From a virus: a stretch of 39,189 bases of DNA. A model generated the notes under the pieces. It was not told the DNA's origin. It saw only the letters and a list, made by a program, of their open reading frames with translations, and did not search any database. The first letter of the stretch is position 1. Each line of letters opens with the position of its first letter. The stretch is from the IMG/VR virus record IMGVR_UViG_3300031237_000141, positions 1 through 39,189 of that record; one strand, written 5' to 3'. Positions 4,120 through 39,189 of the stretch are shown here, piece by piece. A program made the position numbers and the translations under genes.

Positions 4120-5066
4120 ACACGCCTCTCGCTACCGCGCAGCCCGACCGCACGAAATTCATCGGTGGTAGTGACGTGGCCGCCATCCTCGGCGTCAGCC
4201 CCTGGAAGTCACCCTACGAACTGTGGCTGCAGAAGACTGGCCGCGCGCCGAAGGAAGAGGTAACGCCCGAGCAGCAAAAGCGGTTCGACCGTGGCCATCG
4301 CCTGGAACCCGTCGTGCTCGAAATGCTGGTCGACCGACTGCGCGATGAAGGGCATGAAGTGGAGATCCTGACCCGCAATGCTCGCTACATCGATCCAGAG
4401 CACTCATTCTTGGGCTGCGAGATCGATTTCGAGTTGATGCTTGACGGCGAGCACGTCAACGGCGACTGCAAGACCGTTCATCCCTTCGCCGCCAAGAAGT
4501 GGGGCGAGGAAGGAACCGACGAGGTTCCCATCGAATACGCCGCGCAGTTCATGCAAGGCCTGGGCATCACTGGCCGGAATCGCTGCATCGTCGCCACACT
4601 GATCGGCATGGACGATCTGCTTATCTACTGGGTGGAACGCGACGAAGAGACCATCACCGGCATCCGCAAGCGCGTGGTCGAGTTCTGGAACGAATGCGTG
4701 ATCGCGGACGTGGAGCCTGACCCCATCGACTTTGACGACTGCAAGGAAATCTACAAGAAGTCGAACGGCGGCACCATTGAGGCGGATTCGAAGACCCGTG
4801 ACGCGGTGTATCGGCTGGCCGAAGTGAAAGCCAAGATCAAGCTGCTGGAATCCGAGGAAGAGGACCTGCAATACCGCATCACCGCATTCATGCAGCCGAA
4901 TGCCTTCCTCACGGCTGGCGGTCACGAGATCGCCTCCTGGAAGAACCAGAACGATACGCGGCTCGACGGTAAGGCCCTCGAAGCCGATCTGCCGGACGTG
5001 GCCGCCAAGTACAAGCGCACCAAAGAAATTCGCGTTCTCCGCCTGAAGAAAGGAAAATCCCAATGA
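4116..5066 (+). CDS. YqaJ-type viral exonuclease (PD-(D/E)XK), 316 aa
   Basis: Likely the 5'-3' double-strand exonuclease of a phage recombination pair. The start FIGGSDVAAILGVSPWKSPYELW (residues 15-37) is the YqaJ signature. Catalytic residues of the PD-(D/E)XK fold are visible: E64 in HRLEP, D104 in CEIDFE, and D117-C118-K119 in NGDCKT, with a conserved Gln in YAAQFMQG near residue 144. A helical segment with EEEDLQYR follows. The family normally resects duplex ends to give a 3' single strand for the annealing protein encoded next. ATGA overlaps on both sides make it translationally coupled to RecT. Confidence 0.93.
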   Translation: MNTPLATAQPDRTKFIGGSDVAAILGVSPWKSPYELWLQKTGRAPKEEVTPEQQKRFDRGHRLEPVVLEMLVDRLRDEGHEVEILTRNARYIDPEHSFLGCEIDFELMLDGEHVNGDCKTVHPFAAKKWGEEGTDEVPIEYAAQFMQGLGITGRNRCIVATLIGMDDLLIYWVERDEETITGIRKRVVEFWNECVIADVEPDPIDFDDCKEIYKKSNGGTIEADSKTRDAVYRLAEVKAKIKLLESEEEDLQYRITAFMQPNAFLTAGGHEIASWKNQNDTRLDGKALEADLPDVAAKYKRTKEIRVLRLKKGKSQ

Positions 5067-6037
5067 GCACCGCCAACCTGAAAACTGTCGCCACCGGCAA
5101 GAAAGAAAACCCGGTCGCATCGTTCAGCAACTTCCTTGAGAAGTTCAAGCCGCAAATGGCGCTTGCTCTGCCGAAGCATCTGACGGCAGACCGCATGGCT
5201 CGCCTCGCCGTGACGGCATTCAGCACCACGCCGAAGTTGCAGGAGTGCGAGCCGAAGTCGATCCTCGGCGCGATCATGACGGCCTCGACGCTTGGTCTTG
5301 AGATCAACGTCGACGGGCAAGGCTTCCTCGTGCCTTACGGTCGCACCTGCACCTTCGTGCCGGGCTGGAAGGGGCTAGTTGACCTGGTATCGCGCAGTGG
5401 CCGTGCCACCGTGTGGACCGGCGCCGTATTCGAGGGCGATGACTTCGACTATGCCCTAGGCGATTCCCCCTTCATCCGCCACAAGCCAGGCGAAGAGAAC
5501 GATCCGGACAAACTCACGCACGTCTACGCCGTGGGCCGCGTCAACGGCTCGCAGCTGCCGGTGATCGAGGTCTGGACGATCAAGAAGATCTGGAAGCACC
5601 GCGACAAGTACAACAAGCAGGGTGGCAAGCATTACAGTTTCCGCGACCCGGAGATGTATGCCCGCAAGATCCCGCTGCTGCAGGTGATCAAGTACATGCC
5701 GAAATCTATTGAGTTGTCGAATGCCGTTGCGTTGAGCAGCGCGGTCGATGAAGGCAAGCATGCCGTGATCGAGGGCGATTTCGTCACCGTCACCGACCCG
5801 GACACCGGCAACGTGCCGCAGTACGACCCGCAAACGGGCGAGATCACCGACCAGCGCGCGCAGCAGCAGAGCATGACCCTCCAACCCTACGCCACGATGC
5901 TCGACCGCATCCAGAAGTGCCAGGACGTCGACGTACTCGATATCTGCGCCGATGAGGTCCGTGACTATCCCGAAAACGAGCGCGTGAAGCTCGAGCAAGC
6001 CTACATGGATCGCCGCGAGGTCCTGACCGGCGCCTGA
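5063..6037 (+). CDS. recT: RecT-family single-strand annealing protein, 324 aa
   Basis: The protein shows the RecT core: FSNFLEKFKPQMALALPKHL, then CEPKSILGAIMTASTLGLEI, GQGFLVPYG and FVPGWKGLVDLVSRSG, ending with ARKIPLLQVIKYMPKSIEL (about residues 20-235). RecT proteins coat single-stranded DNA and anneal complementary strands, here probably on ends produced by the exonuclease immediately upstream. The last 80 residues are a variable, Gln- and Asp-rich tail. The start overlaps the exonuclease stop as ATGA. A terminator-like hairpin follows the stop at 6047-6087. Confidence 0.95.
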   Translation: MSTANLKTVATGKKENPVASFSNFLEKFKPQMALALPKHLTADRMARLAVTAFSTTPKLQECEPKSILGAIMTASTLGLEINVDGQGFLVPYGRTCTFVPGWKGLVDLVSRSGRATVWTGAVFEGDDFDYALGDSPFIRHKPGEENDPDKLTHVYAVGRVNGSQLPVIEVWTIKKIWKHRDKYNKQGGKHYSFRDPEMYARKIPLLQVIKYMPKSIELSNAVALSSAVDEGKHAVIEGDFVTVTDPDTGNVPQYDPQTGEITDQRAQQQSMTLQPYATMLDRIQKCQDVDVLDICADEVRDYPENERVKLEQAYMDRREVLTGA

Positions 6038-6046
6038 TTATCCCTA

Positions 6047-6087
6047 GCCGTGCGTCGATTCCCCGTCCGAGGCGCGCGGCCTTTTTA
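6047..6087 (+). terminator. Rho-independent terminator after recT
   Basis: GCCGTGCG (6047-6054) can pair with CGCGCGGC (6073-6080), giving an 8-bp GC-rich stem with one G-U pair. Inside the loop TCG can pair with CGA. The stem is followed at once by CTTTTTATT. It lies 10 bases after the recT stop, so it probably ends or weakens the first part of the rightward operon, with the next two genes receiving reduced readthrough. Confidence 0.6.
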
Positions 6088-6111
6088 TTCATTGAGCCAG
6101 GAGCGCACATC

Positions 6112-6309
6112 ATGAACCTCCTATCCCGCCTCGACTCGCACAACGAATTCACCGAAAGCGCCGAAGCTAGGCAGCTAAGGAAAGATGCTGCTGATGAGAT
6201 TCGAAGGCTCCGATATGCGCTCGATAATGCCAAAGGTCGTGCCGAAGCCGCAGAGATCAAGGCGAGCACATTGGAGCGCCTGGTGATGCGTGATGGCGCT
6301 AGAAGATAA
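6112..6309 (+). CDS. Small coiled-coil protein, 65 aa
   Basis: Not recognised by family. Charged and predicted almost fully helical: residues 17-58 have heptad-like spacing (LRKDAADEIRRLRYALDN, then AEAAEIKASTLERL), so a coiled coil is likely. Start chosen at the first ATG, after an AGGAG about 10 bases upstream. It sits just behind a terminator-like hairpin and before a probable DNA-binding protein. Similar short coiled-coil proteins are frequent in phage early regions. Role unknown. Confidence 0.68.
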   Translation: MNLLSRLDSHNEFTESAEARQLRKDAADEIRRLRYALDNAKGRAEAAEIKASTLERLVMRDGARR

Positions 6310-6318
6310 GGGGAAGAG

Positions 6319-6870
6319 ATGAAAGCCTGGACACACTGGACAGAAGAAGATGACGCCAAACTGCGTGAGTATTGGGCGAATGGCATTCCTGTGCGGAAGT
6401 GGTTCACTGACTTCCCAGGGCGCAGCCAATCCTCGATCTTCTGCCGGGCACATGCTCTTGGTCTGCCTGCGCGCAACAAGACGGTGCAGCGCGACGAATG
6501 CGTGACGTGGCGCATGATTCAGCGTGTGCTTTCCGATGGGGTGGCGAGATCATCTAAGGAACTCTCCATTCTCACCGGATTCCATAGCGCTTATATCTCG
6601 CTCCAGCTGAAACGCCATCATCCGGAGCGTTTACATATCGTCGGATGGGTTGGGCACCGCATGAAGATGCCGCGATGGGCACTTGGGCCGGGCGAAGATA
6701 CACCGAAGCCGGCGCCGATATCTCATAGTGCAGCCTCAGCGAAATGGCGCAAGAAGATGCTGAATGAACGGCCGGAAATGATCGATGCGAAGAACGCACG
6801 CAGGCGCTTGCGATATGCCGAGCGTGCCGGGACTTTGATCCGCCGCGATCCAGCTGCGGCGTGGTTCTAA
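6319..6870 (+). CDS. Putative Myb/SANT-like or HTH DNA-binding protein, 183 aa
   Basis: The N-terminus HWTEEDDAKLREYWANGI followed by FPGRSQSSIFCRAHALGL (residues 6-50) resembles the SANT/Myb or GcrA-like helix-turn-helix seen in phage regulators, where W-T-x-E-E-D opens the domain and GRS-x-x-x-I-x-x-R-A-x-x-L-G-L closes it. A second possible HTH lies at residues 70-100 (RSSKELSILTGFHSAYISLQL). The C-terminal part is basic. GGGGAAG precedes the ATG by about 5 bases. As last gene of the rightward unit it could be a late regulator, which is inference. It converges with the lysis module, only 2 bases separating the two stops. Confidence 0.65.
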   Translation: MKAWTHWTEEDDAKLREYWANGIPVRKWFTDFPGRSQSSIFCRAHALGLPARNKTVQRDECVTWRMIQRVLSDGVARSSKELSILTGFHSAYISLQLKRHHPERLHIVGWVGHRMKMPRWALGPGEDTPKPAPISHSAASAKWRKKMLNERPEMIDAKNARRRLRYAERAGTLIRRDPAAAWF

Positions 6871-6872
6871 GA

Positions 6873-7406
6873 TTATTGTGGGACCGATGCTGGCGGCGCT
6901 GATACCTTAGGCATTAACGCATCGTAGGCTCTTTCGCAGGCCTTCCCTGCGATCCGGGCGGCGTCAGCCGTTTCTGCCAACCTTCGATTGCGCTCGACAG
7001 ATTCGAGGAACAGGTCGGAGAGCAGATTTGCGGCGTCGCCGGCTGCCTCGCCTGCGCTGGGAGTGGTGGGATCTTTGGGGGCTCTGGCGGCGGCAAGTAG
7101 CTCGTTAACTCGCTGGCGCAGGCGGCCAGCAGCATCGTTGGCAGTAGCAGCATCAGCGCGCGCGCCGACCATTTCTTTCGTTGCAGCATTGGCTATCTCC
7201 GTTTGGGCAGTGGTGCGGCGCTGTTCCTCGATCCTGGCATCATCCACCGCCTTGACCTGAACGCGGGCGGCATCCAGCGCCGCGGCAGTCGTCTTGGCTT
7301 GGTAGGCGGCCGCGTCCGCTCGGGATTGCTGCCAGCGGCCACCGCCATATGCCATCAGCAGCGCTAGCGCACAAGCGATCCACACGCGCGGGTCGAGGAT
7401 GCTCAT
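6873..7406 (-). CDS. Rz-like inner-membrane spanin (i-spanin), 177 aa
   Basis: An N-terminal signal anchor (residues 7-22, VWIACALALLMAYGGG) is followed by a long Ala-, Arg- and Gln-rich periplasmic coiled coil (about 30-150), with a Cys near 157 and a short C-terminal tail. This is the layout of Rz/DUF2514 i-spanins, which pair with an outer-membrane lipoprotein to fuse the two membranes in the last step of lysis. The outer partner is nested inside this gene in another frame (6914-7189). The start overlaps the preceding holin-like gene as ATGA (7403-7406). It is the last gene of the leftward unit. Confidence 0.88.
   Translation of the reverse strand: MSILDPRVWIACALALLMAYGGGRWQQSRADAAAYQAKTTAAALDAARVQVKAVDDARIEEQRRTTAQTEIANAATKEMVGARADAATANDAAGRLRQRVNELLAAARAPKDPTTPSAGEAAGDAANLLSDLFLESVERNRRLAETADAARIAGKACERAYDALMPKVSAPPASVPQ
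6914..7189 (-). CDS. Rz1-like outer-membrane lipoprotein spanin (o-spanin), nested in Rz, 91 aa
   Basis: Fully embedded in the Rz gene in a different frame, as in lambda. Residues 1-24 form a lipoprotein signal: basic start, hydrophobic stretch ALMLLLPTM, then lipobox L-A-A-C with the lipidated Cys at 24. After it comes a Pro-rich segment (YLPPPEPPKIPPLPA), typical of Rz1. It should sit in the outer membrane facing the Rz C-terminus. The ATG at 7189 is the first in this frame; Met13 and Met19 would shorten or remove the signal. Confidence 0.85.
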   Translation of the reverse strand: MLQRKKWSARALMLLLPTMLLAACASELTSYLPPPEPPKIPPLPAQARQPATPQICSPTCSSNLSSAIEGWQKRLTPPGSQGRPAKEPTMR

Positions 7407-36330: not shown

Positions 36331-36334
<4 letters not shown>

Positions 36335-37449
36335 GCTGCGACCTCCAGCGGCAGCCCGGGCTGGCGCGTGCGCTCAGCCTGCAGCGCGATGTACTCGGGG
36401 TTGAGTTCGGCGCCGAGCCAGCGACGGCCGAGGCGTTGCGCGACGCTGGCCACCGTGCCGGAACCCATGAACGGGTCGAAGACGATGTCGCTGGGCCGGC
36501 TGCCGGCGAGTACGCACGGCTCGACCAGCGCTTCGGGGAAGGTGGCGAAGTGCGCGCCGTCGAACGACTGCGTTGGAATGCTCCAGACACTGCGGCGGTT
36601 GCGTGTGTCCACCAAGTCCTTCACTGCCGCGCTGAATGAGGCGTTCTGCTTCGCTCGCGGCTTCGCCACCTTGTCGTAGCCGCGGCCGAAGCCGACACCG
36701 GTACCGGCGTAGCGCCCGGTCAGCGCACGGTGGCCGCCGGCCGACGTGTCCCAACCGGCCGGCACCACTGCTTTCGGGTTGACGCCGGATCCCCGCGCGT
36801 GCGCGCCGCCGCTGACTGGCTCCTGCATGGCGGCGAAGTCGTAGAAGTACTTCTCGTTCTTCGTGAGCAGGAACAGGTACTCGTGCGCTTTGGTGCAGCG
36901 GTCTCGGACGCTTTCAGGCATCGGGTTCGGCTTGTGCCAGATGATGTCCTGCCGCAGCCACCACCCTGCGTCCTGCAGAGCGAAGGCGAGGCGCCACGGC
37001 TGGCCGACCAGGTCTTTCGGCTTCAACCCTTCAATCCGCACGTCGCTGCGCGGGATTGGCGTGTTATCACGCCGGCGGCTGGCGGTCATGCTCTTGATCT
37101 TCGGACCGCCGCCGCGGTGGCCATTGCCGAGAAGCGTCGAGGACTCCGATGGCGCACCGCCGCCGCGCGACCCCGCATAGCTGTCGCCCATGTTCAACCA
37201 CAACGTGCCGTCGTCCGCCAGCAACTCGCGGCACAGGTCGAACACCTCAACCATGTTGGCCAGGAATTCGCGCAGCGTCGGCTCTTGGCCGAGCTGACCG
37301 GGATGGCCGTAGTCGCGCAGGCCCCAGTAAGGCGGACTGGTGACGATGCACTGCACGCGCACGCCGGCGGCGATCAATTCGCGCATGACGGCGCGACAGT
37401 CGCCTTGGTAGCAGTGATCCAATATCAGCGGATCGGGTAACTCGGCCAT
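36331..37449 (-). CDS. DNA methyltransferase (amino-MTase, TSPPYW type), 372 aa
   Basis: Motif IV TSPPYWGLRDYG (37-48) and the S-adenosylmethionine motif I FDPFMGSGTVASVAQRLGRRWLGAEL near residue 325-350 give the beta-class order (IV before I), which methylates exocyclic amino groups (N4-cytosine or N6-adenine; the S-P-P-Y form favours N4-cytosine in many cases). KPNPMPESVRDRCTKAHEYLFLLTKNEKYFYD is a further typical segment. The middle is a likely recognition region. The frame opens at a GTG at 37461; the ATG at 37449 is preferred. It has no adjacent restriction gene. The stop overlaps the YdaU-like GTG start. Confidence 0.88.
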
Positions 37450-37451
37450 AC

Positions 37452-37544
37452 CTAATCCCACGACAACTGATCAACGTTCTGCAACTCGTTCATCCGCTCG
37501 CGTGCGCTTTCAACCTCATCGGCCGAAACTGTTTCCGCGGTCAT
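37452..37544 (-). CDS. Small acidic protein, 30 aa
   Basis: MTAETVSADEVESARERMNE then LQNVDQLSWD. GAGG lies 6 bases before the ATG at 37544, a good ribosome site, and the stop is 3 bases before the methyltransferase ATG. It directly follows the Cro-like gene. Acidic, helical content and position next to a repressor suggest a small regulator or leader peptide, but nothing proves it. Confidence 0.55.
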   Translation of the reverse strand: MTAETVSADEVESARERMNELQNVDQLSWD

Positions 37545-37552
37545 CGCAGTCC

Positions 37553-37756
37553 TCAGGCAGCAGCTGGTTCTGCCAGTTGGGATACCGACTTCATGGCCTC
37601 GCGCAGCTTGGTGTAGGTGCGCAGGTTCACGGATTCGACCTCGCCATTGGCGATGCGAGACAGGGTCTTGGTGCTCAAGCCGGTATCGGCAGCGATCCGC
37701 GTCCAGCGACCGCGTTGATCGGTAAGCCAAGCACGCAGCACATTCATTTCGTCCAT
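37553..37756 (-). CDS. Cro-like helix-turn-helix DNA-binding protein, 67 aa
   Basis: MDEMNVLRAWLTDQRGRWTRIAADTGLSTKTLSRIANGEVESVNLRTYTKLREAMKS: helices 2 and 3 at about W18-A36 (IAADTGLSTKTLSRIANGE) form a classical Cro/CI-type HTH. The size (67) fits a Cro-like protein without a dimerisation or cleavage domain. It is the first gene of the leftward unit, next to the six operators (37777-37837, 37928-37982), and so is the likely operator-binding protein and could repress both directions. No CI-type cleavable repressor was found in the window. Confidence 0.85.
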   Translation of the reverse strand: MDEMNVLRAWLTDQRGRWTRIAADTGLSTKTLSRIANGEVESVNLRTYTKLREAMKSVSQLAEPAAA

Positions 37757-37776: not shown

Positions 37777-37837
37777 AGACATATACGTCTGAACCATCAT
37801 AAGACAGATTCGCCTTATGCGCAAGACGCAAACGTCT
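37777..37837. promoter_or_regulatory. Left operator cluster, three 14-bp sites
   Basis: Three sites of form AGAC-N6-GTCT: 37777-37790 (AGACATATACGTCT), 37802-37815 (AGACAGATTCGCCT, one mismatch in the right arm) and 37824-37837 (AGACGCAAACGTCT). Starts are 25 and 22 bases apart. The middle site lies exactly between the -35 and -10 of the leftward promoter. Arrangement is as in lambda OL. Confidence 0.8.
37796..37824 (-). promoter_or_regulatory. Leftward early promoter (PL-like)
   Basis: On the minus strand TTGCGC (37819-37824) is followed after 17 bases by TATGAT (37796-37801, 5 of 6). The spacer consists of 3 bases plus the 14-bp operator 37802-37815. It would transcribe the Cro-like gene and the leftward early genes. 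The rightward promoter at 37960-37988 has the same build. Confidence 0.65.
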
Positions 37838-37848
37838 GTGGAGAGTCG

Positions 37849-37925
37849 ATGGAGTTCGGCTCCATGGATTGAGCGGGCTTTTTTTCGTCCTGAAAAACGT
37901 GGCCTATCGGACTCGGCTGTCCGAT
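37849..37925. repeat. Two hairpins between the divergent promoters
   Basis: ATGGAG (37849-37854) / CTCCAT (37860-37865) with a 5-base loop, and ATCGGAC (37906-37912) / GTCCGAT (37919-37925) with a 6-base loop. A T-run of seven (37879-37885) lies 13 bases after the first hairpin, too far for a standard terminator. The second hairpin abuts the right operator cluster. Their roles are open: a regulator site, a weak terminator, or nothing. Confidence 0.5.
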
Positions 37926-37927
37926 TG

Positions 37928-37982
37928 AAACGTTTTCGTCTTATCTAGACACATTCGTCTTGCTATCTAGACGCTTACGTCT
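37928..37982. promoter_or_regulatory. Right operator cluster, three 14-bp sites
   Basis: Sites at 37928-37941 (AAACGTTTTCGTCT, one mismatch in the left arm), 37947-37960 (AGACACATTCGTCT) and 37969-37982 (AGACGCTTACGTCT). Starts are 19 and 22 bases apart. The last site sits between the -35 and -10 of the rightward promoter. Together with the left cluster it makes six sites in 206 bases, as in lambda OR/OL. Confidence 0.8.
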
Positions 37983-37988
37983 TACAGT
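37960..37988 (+). promoter_or_regulatory. Rightward early promoter (PR-like)
   Basis: TTGCTA (37960-37965, 4 of 6) is followed after 17 bases by TACAGT (37983-37988, 4 of 6). The spacer is 3 bases plus the 14-bp operator 37969-37982, the same plan as the leftward promoter. The first gene (ATG 38022) would have a leader of about 25-30 bases. Confidence 0.58.
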
Positions 37989-38021: not shown

Positions 38022-38234
38022 ATGACCACCACCCGCAAATTCGAGAAGCAAGCAGCAAAGGAATCGAAGGACGGCAGCACGCGCTACGTCGTCTATGTGT
38101 TCGACCAAGGCGCAGACGTGTTTGACGGTGAGCAAGCGCGCCGCTATGGCCCGCTGGTGCAGATCGAATCCGCATGGCTGAACGGCCAATGCATCGCCAC
38201 GCTGGCCGCCGCACGCGACCTGCTGGGCTACTGA
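38022..38234 (+). CDS. Hypothetical protein, 70 aa, first gene of rightward operon
   Basis: Not recognised. MTTTRKFEKQAAKESKDGST leads into beta-like RYVVYVFDQGADVFDGEQARR and ends ATLAAARDLLGY. GGAG lies 7 bases before the ATG. As the first gene after the rightward promoter it is the earliest made product of that unit; early genes of this kind are often anti-host or regulatory proteins, but nothing here shows it. A 6-bp hairpin (CATCTG/CAGATG, 38245-38261) follows in the gap to the next gene. Confidence 0.75.
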   Translation: MTTTRKFEKQAAKESKDGSTRYVVYVFDQGADVFDGEQARRYGPLVQIESAWLNGQCIATLAAARDLLGY

Positions 38235-38687: not shown

Positions 38688-39189
38688 ATGGCCAAAATCG
38701 TCCGCACGCCGACCCGCGCTGAAGGCGGCATTACTCCAGCTGAAAAAGCAAAGATGGATCTGATCGCGAAGAAGTGGATCGACATTGCGATGCGCACTGA
38801 TCCCATCGAGCCGGAGAAGATCACGCCAGCTATCGAAGCGCTCTATGCCGCCGCGGGGCTGAAAAAGCCGCGCGTGGTAATCGTACCGAGCCCGATGGTA
38901 ATGGCCTTTGCGTATGGCGCTTCGGCCTGGATCTGGCATTGCCGCAAACAGACCGCCACGGACGCCGCCACGTACGCCGCCACGCGCGCCGCCACGTACG
39001 CCGCCACGGACGCCGCCACGTACGACGCCACGTACGCCGCCACGCGCGCCGCCACGCGCGCCGCCACGGACGACGCCACGGACGACGCCACGTACGACGC
39101 CACGTACGCCGCCACGTACGCCGCCACGGACGCCGCCACGTCCGCCGCCACGGACGCCGCCACGGACGCCGCCACGGCCGCCGCCACGC
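38688..39189 (+). CDS. Giant tetrapeptide-repeat protein, N-terminal part (DUF6745-like), 3' end cut by window
   Basis: ATG at 38688 starts a frame open to the window end. The first 88 residues contain IAKKWIDIAMRTDP, ITPAIEALYAAAGLKKPRVVIVPSP and MVMAFAYGASAWIW. From memory, the pattern (helix, then A-L-Y-x-A-A-G-L, then P-R-V-V, then S-P-x) fits the N-terminal part of DUF6745-type proteins. The tetrapeptide repeat begins right after CRKQ at 38952. The remainder and C-terminus are at 1-1987. Total visible length is above 820 residues, of which about 470 are repeat. GAGAG lies about 12 bases upstream. It is the third gene of the rightward operon. Confidence 0.8.
   Translation, partial: MAKIVRTPTRAEGGITPAEKAKMDLIAKKWIDIAMRTDPIEPEKITPAIEALYAAAGLKKPRVVIVPSPMVMAFAYGASAWIWHCRKQTATDAATYAATRAATYAATDAATYDATYAATRAATRAATDDATDDATYDATYAATYAATDAATSAATDAATDAATAAAT
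38952..39188 (+). repeat. 12-bp coding tandem repeat, right tract, about 20 units
   Basis: Nineteen full units plus 9 bases, same unit as at 2-1174 and same frame as the ATG at 38688. The first unit begins with ACC (Thr). One unit has TCC (Ser) and one GCC (Ala) instead of TAC/GAC/CGC. Units near the right edge are more varied than those on the left, as often seen at the edge of a tract. Confidence 0.97.

Follow-up and report, generated by a model that had tools for sequence, protein, structure and literature searches.

A divergent six-operator control region around a deleted cI gene in a probable virulent descendant, of natural origin, of a temperate lambda-like phage

Between positions 37777 and 37982 of the window, i.e., the whole stretch of 39,189 nucleotides of viral DNA analysed here, lie six 14-bp palindromic sites of the form AGAC-N6-GTCT, three on each side of a divergent control region. 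An earlier note on this DNA had reported a Cro-like protein next to them and no CI-type gene, and had offered two explanations, namely a switch run by one protein or a repressor that is absent from this sequence. The question raised by this locus is which of these, if either, accounts for a full set of operators with no CI. As argued below, the window very probably belongs to a phage that became virulent in nature, descends from a temperate lambda-like ancestor and has a circuit reduced to Cro. The features on which the argument draws are collected in Table 1.

Table 1. Position, strand and basis of the features in and around the control region of the window.
Feature	Position	Strand	Basis or remark
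Site of the integrase and attP-like insert of G001, ~1.5 kb, lacking in the window	6864..6919	.	
cII relic, 30-aa frame	37452..37544	-	First 15 codons match CII of L003/L004, remainder unrelated
67-aa cro-like gene (HTH repressor) at the head of the leftward early operon	37553..37756	-	
Operator, cro side, just 3' of the leftward -10	37777..37790	.	Exact match; kept in L003, L005
Putative leftward (cro) -10, TATGAT	37796..37801	-	Sequence; TATTAT at the same place in L003, TAGTAT in L005
Operator in the cro-promoter spacer	37802..37815	.	One mismatch, AGACAGATTCGCCT; GCCT deviation also in L003
Putative leftward (cro) -35, TTGCGC	37819..37824	-	Sequence; TTGCAC in L003, TTGCAT in L005
Operator upstream of the cro promoter, former cI side	37824..37837	.	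Exact match; conserved
cI relic, ATG GAT TGA	37864..37872	+	Aligned to the L003 cI start, ATGGATAAAGCA
Deletion junction	37869..37873	.	989 bp of L003 (4899-5887) missing; BLAST segments
Remainder of the former cI-operon terminator: 3' arm and T-run, GCGGGCTTTTTTT, without the 5' arm	37873..37885	+	Comparison with L003
Rightward-side operator, most distant from the promoter	37928..37941	.	One mismatch, AAACGTTTTCGTCT; identical in L003, L005
Operator directly upstream of the rightward -35	37947..37960	.	Exact match; conserved
Putative rightward early -35, TTGCTA	37960..37965	+	Sequence; TTGCTA in L003, TTGTTA in L005
Operator in the rightward-promoter spacer	37969..37982	.	Exact match; conserved
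Putative rightward -10, TACAGT	37983..37988	+	Sequence; TAAAGT in L003, TAGCAT in L005
70-aa gene opening the rightward early operon	38022..38234	+	ORF
Start of the AAT-type repeat protein	38688..39189	+	Other part at 2-1987

The six sites are all found where they had been reported, four of them exact and two with a single mismatch. Sites with at most one mismatch show no excess over the window as a whole (9, against 9.5 in shuffles), and this count was dropped as evidence since it equals chance; significance lies only in the cluster. There, 0.07 sites with at most one mismatch are expected per 206 bp and six are observed (P ~1e-10), while the four exact sites alone, in the same 206 bp, give P ~2e-12; a chance origin of the cluster is excluded. 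With a weight matrix trained on the operators of the window and of two relatives, the six sites, themselves part of the training set, score 15.6-21.6, against 11.7 for the runner-up in the window. When viral contigs were scanned with the 67-aa protein, four relatives came up, i.e., L002 (contig G001), L003 (G002), L004 (G003) and L005 (G004). The same operators stand in the same order in L003 and L005, including the imperfect site AAACGTTTTCGTCT; in L005 the operator in the cro-side spacer is weaker (AGGCGCATCCGCCC). Many other contigs with paired AGAC-N6-GTCT sites were set aside, the pairs being due to repeats with a period of 18 or 19 bp or to clusters of no relation to this one. The unrelated contig L037 has four exact sites at 7085-7168, spaced by 22-24 bp, which are possibly the control region of another phage with a similar operator.

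In each of the two putative promoters, the 17-bp spacer reads, as had been claimed, as 3 bases plus one 14-bp operator: TTGCGC, ATA, operator and TATGAT to the left, TTGCTA, TCT, operator and TACAGT to the right. A generic promoter scan predicted none in the window and the hexamers of both are weak by consensus, so that conservation of the layout, which recurs in L003 and L005, is the stronger evidence for promoter function. Divergent early promoters, each with its operator cluster, are found in this way in three sequences. An operator inside the promoter is also the arrangement of lambda PR and PL, and it is therefore not unusual in itself. The 70-aa product of the first rightward gene has no match in domain and family searches. 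The 93-base spacer between the promoters folds slightly better than shuffles (z -2.4); a new RNA was considered here and rejected, the spacer being mostly accounted for by a relic and a leader, which are described below. A perfect 7-bp hairpin (ATCGGAC/GTCCGAT, 37907-37926) adjoins the rightward operator triplet, and weaker hairpins occur at the matching position in L003 and L005.

The 67-aa protein deserves its description as Cro-like, inasmuch as it matches a repressor family (phrog_9425, E 6.6e-7) and, below the cut-off of the Pfam model, HTH_26 (E 5.7e-4); it is also the only HTH_3 match in the window. Its predicted fold is all-helical (mean pLDDT 82), with XRE/Cro-type structural matches of weak significance. 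It is 82-88% identical to Cro of L003, L004 and L005 and identical to that of G001. A tblastn search of the phage collection with this protein gave no match, and a search of the collection against the DNA of the window gave similarity over one gene only. A search for the host via prophages, by a genome scan with Cro, returned one weak hit on a Corynebacterium-like contig, which is not usable. As in the lambda type, a cro-like HTH gene leads one early operon, and the layout as a whole supports a divergent control region of the lambda type, in which each side has three operators; it would presumably be run by the Cro-like protein, which by analogy would bind the six sites.

What lay between the triplets can be read from the relatives. 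In L003 and L005 they are ~1 kb apart and enclose a CI-type gene with an HTH and an S24 peptidase domain (S24 E values of 4e-22 and 2e-20). The two repressors have the same orientation, are 217 and 218 aa long without the start codon, display the typical Ser, Lys and Ala-Gly motifs and are 65% identical (71% DNA identity across 948 bp); each is followed by a short accessory gene, which differs between the two. Between the operator clusters of the window and of G001 there is no cI-type repressor, and the claim that the window has no CI-type gene held, no S24/CI-type gene being detected in it. The reversed window matches L003 in two BLAST segments (1194-1317 with 4775-4898, and 1321-1689 with 5888-6254), between which there are 3 bases in the window and 989 bp (4899-5887) in L003. 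At this junction the cI leader is retained, and the start codon and codon 2 are as in L003 but are followed by a stop. The terminator, intact in L003 (4911-4892, minus strand), is reduced to one arm and the T-run, and no terminator is predicted at 37873..37885 in the window. Half a terminator directly behind a start codon marks a deletion remnant and not an ancestral region devoid of cI. The opposite history, in which the arrangement without cI is ancestral and L003 and L005 gained cI between the operators later, has the bare pattern of presence and absence in its favor and nothing beyond; given that the window holds these relics and that L003 and L005 share homologous cI genes in the same place, its probability is negligible. 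Of the two explanations offered earlier, the absence of a repressor from this sequence comes close, but more can be said: the gene occupies precisely this interval in relatives with the same operators, and its start codon and half its terminator are left behind in the window.

The closest annotated relative of the C-terminal half of L003 CI is the c repressor of Xanthomonas phage PBR31 (MT119766), with 64% identity over 141 aa; the alignment is confined to that half and no genome-level kinship to the window was seen. L136 and L137 have the same CI C-terminal domain as well as CII, but their Cro and the DNA-binding domain of their CI are of another kind and they lack the AGAC-N6-GTCT cluster, which amounts to an immunity-specificity swap.

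How far such absences can be trusted depends on the completeness of the contig. The record is classed as linear. Both of its ends are AAT-repeat coding sequence of one gene, and this gene is also where G001 is broken, its ends overlapping by 111 bp. The simplest reading is that the window is a circularly permuted genome broken in the repeat and essentially whole; gene absences are then meaningful though not proven. Loss of CI through a cut of the contig was rejected, as the missing block is interior to the contig, whose ends both fall within a single repeat gene. The repeat protein itself, long and without any family match, consists for the most part of AAT[Y/D/R/V]-type repeats (38688-39189 and 2-1987) followed by a conserved non-repetitive C-terminal part, and the length of the repeat stretch differs between the two contigs.

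The window and G001 (L074/L075) are mosaic, with ~89% identity in some tracts and 100% elsewhere (e.g., 22.8-25 kb), which points to recent recombination between them. At the cassette lacking cI, their identity is 99.5% over 571 bp; a recent swap of this cassette alone was dismissed, since other tracts are also 100% identical and it is not special in this respect. The junction is carried by these two genomes only, recombining near-relatives in which extended stretches are identical; it may go back to a single event, so that replication by independent cases is thin. These are metagenome contigs, and long identical tracts common to both can confuse assemblers, so that a chimeric join might have removed the cI block. 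Such an artefact is nevertheless hardly to be expected: G001 has the same junction with different neighboring genes, no long repeat is seen there, and cII is truncated too, with neither contig holding an intact copy. No genome-wide close neighbor of the window with an intact cI was found; for L003 and L005, close resemblance is confined to the immunity region.

The deletion of cI is accompanied by other losses. A CII-type gene follows cro in L003 and L004 (Pfam Phage_CII above cut-off; phrog_725, E 1e-16 in L003), and cII is intact in L003, L004 and L136/L137, whereas only 15 codons are left in the window and in G001. The lambda-type activator downstream of cro is accordingly represented in the window by a relic, and a domain search of the window returned no CII, tyrosine-integrase or serine-recombinase (resolvase) family. 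An integrase is present in G001 and G002 and absent from the window. In G001 an open integrase gene is found together with a perfect tRNA-Ser 3' end (L074 5888-6967 and 7041-7070), which looks like an attP and is also absent from the window. The loss of lysogeny genes looks stepwise, because G001 shares the cI and cII lesions yet keeps the integrase and the attP-like site. Just after the cII relic there is a variable cassette site, occupied by a DNA methyltransferase gene in the window (36331-37461, minus strand) and by an HNH-endonuclease-like gene in G001.

With cI and cII gone, the Cro-like protein is the only recognisable regulator of both early promoters, although a diverged repressor devoid of recognisable S24 or HTH domains could conceivably be encoded elsewhere in the window. 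A genuine one-protein switch, in which this protein, through repression of both early promoters, suffices for a dormant or carrier state and no cI is required, would fit a single regulator with six operators kept, and G001, likewise without cI, retains an open integrase gene and the attP-like site. Moreover, Cro-dominated lambda states can be heritably stable in reporter strains (PMC4070997). Against this, the relics speak of a lost CI and not of a design without CI, cII is also truncated, the window has no integrase, and Cro is encoded within the operon under its own repression, from which replication genes are fed as well. The one-protein switch suggested in the earlier note is probably wrong, in that relatives with the same operators have a full CI between the triplets and the window keeps relics of it. 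A carrier state on Cro alone is not impossible, only unsupported, and we consider such a switch very unlikely.

Gene loss of this kind is known from the mycobacteriophages D29 and MissWhite, lytic phages derived in nature from temperate ones of the L5 type. D29, the documented precedent, is a natural lytic phage in which a deletion ends inside the repressor gene and the integration apparatus is functional; D29 and its temperate relatives are homoimmune, and it can form lysogens once repressor is provided (PMC5712189; PMC6550527). As in D29 and MissWhite, a deletion runs into the repressor gene in the window and operator sites are kept: the repressor is present in the relatives L003 and L005, the disrupted gene has left relics, and all six operators are retained. 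D29 and G001 both keep an integrase, whereas the window has lost the integrase and cII; furthermore, D29 and MissWhite use a different repressor-operator system, with asymmetric stoperators. A phage of this sort might also receive CI in trans from a co-resident prophage of the same immunity (e.g., of the L005 type) and live as an immunity parasite, not as a purely lytic phage. L005 has the same operator set and its contig comes from the same sample as G001, which itself keeps int and the attP-like site, and D29 forms lysogens given the L5 repressor (PMC5712189). The window, however, has neither integrase nor attP, and nothing shows selection for such a lifestyle; this explanation, too, is highly improbable. 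Even when dependence on CI from co-resident homoimmune prophages and a Cro-only carrier state are considered together as means by which the lineage persists, with the loss of cI as a stable lifestyle, the probability is small.

For the natural virulent derivative favored here, the following course can be proposed. The ancestor would have had two operator triplets flanking cI (HTH plus a self-cleaving-type S24 peptidase) and one accessory gene; cro and cII would have pointed away from this block on one side, and the second early operon on the opposite side. A deletion of ~1 kb would have taken cI from codon 3, together with the accessory gene and the terminator's 5' arm; cII would have been cut at codon 15, and the lineage of the window would additionally have lost the integrase and attP. 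By analogy with what is generally known of lambda, Cro alone would bind the six operators and lower both early promoters while accumulating, and the circuit would act as a timing brake by negative feedback on lytic growth, not as a two-state switch.

The window shares with the immunity region of lambda and lambdoid phages the divergent early promoters, the three operators per side overlapping them and the position of cro as first gene, although AGAC-N6-GTCT differs from the lambda operator sequence. L003 and L005 resemble lambdoid OR/OL further in having cI and an accessory gene between the triplets, and relatives have cII after cro. Unlike lambda, the window has lost cI along with the accessory gene, and of cII only a truncated form is left. 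Lambda cI-minus phages form clear plaques and are immunity-sensitive, and lambda-dv plasmids are run by Cro alone; there, as in the window, Cro is the sole regulator left on intact operators. These are laboratory products, whereas the window represents a lineage that arose in nature and in which more of the lysogeny genes have gone.

The locus is a case of gene loss of a known kind in unusually clear form, and the apparent novelty of a missing CI is explained by it. Three states line up, with cI, cII and int all present (the L003 contig), only int kept (G001) and none of them left (the window), and the operators survive in all three, which provides a legible picture of how lysogeny is lost from a temperate phage and a testable case for what six operators do with Cro alone left. 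It also calls for caution, as relatives should be compared before the lack of a CI gene is taken as a new type of switch. The lifestyle would be obligately lytic. As all operators are intact, a lysogen of the L003 or L005 type would be expected to block the phage through its CI, i.e., the phage would probably be sensitive to homoimmune lysogens, and a lytic phage may in this way still obey the immunity of its temperate relatives.
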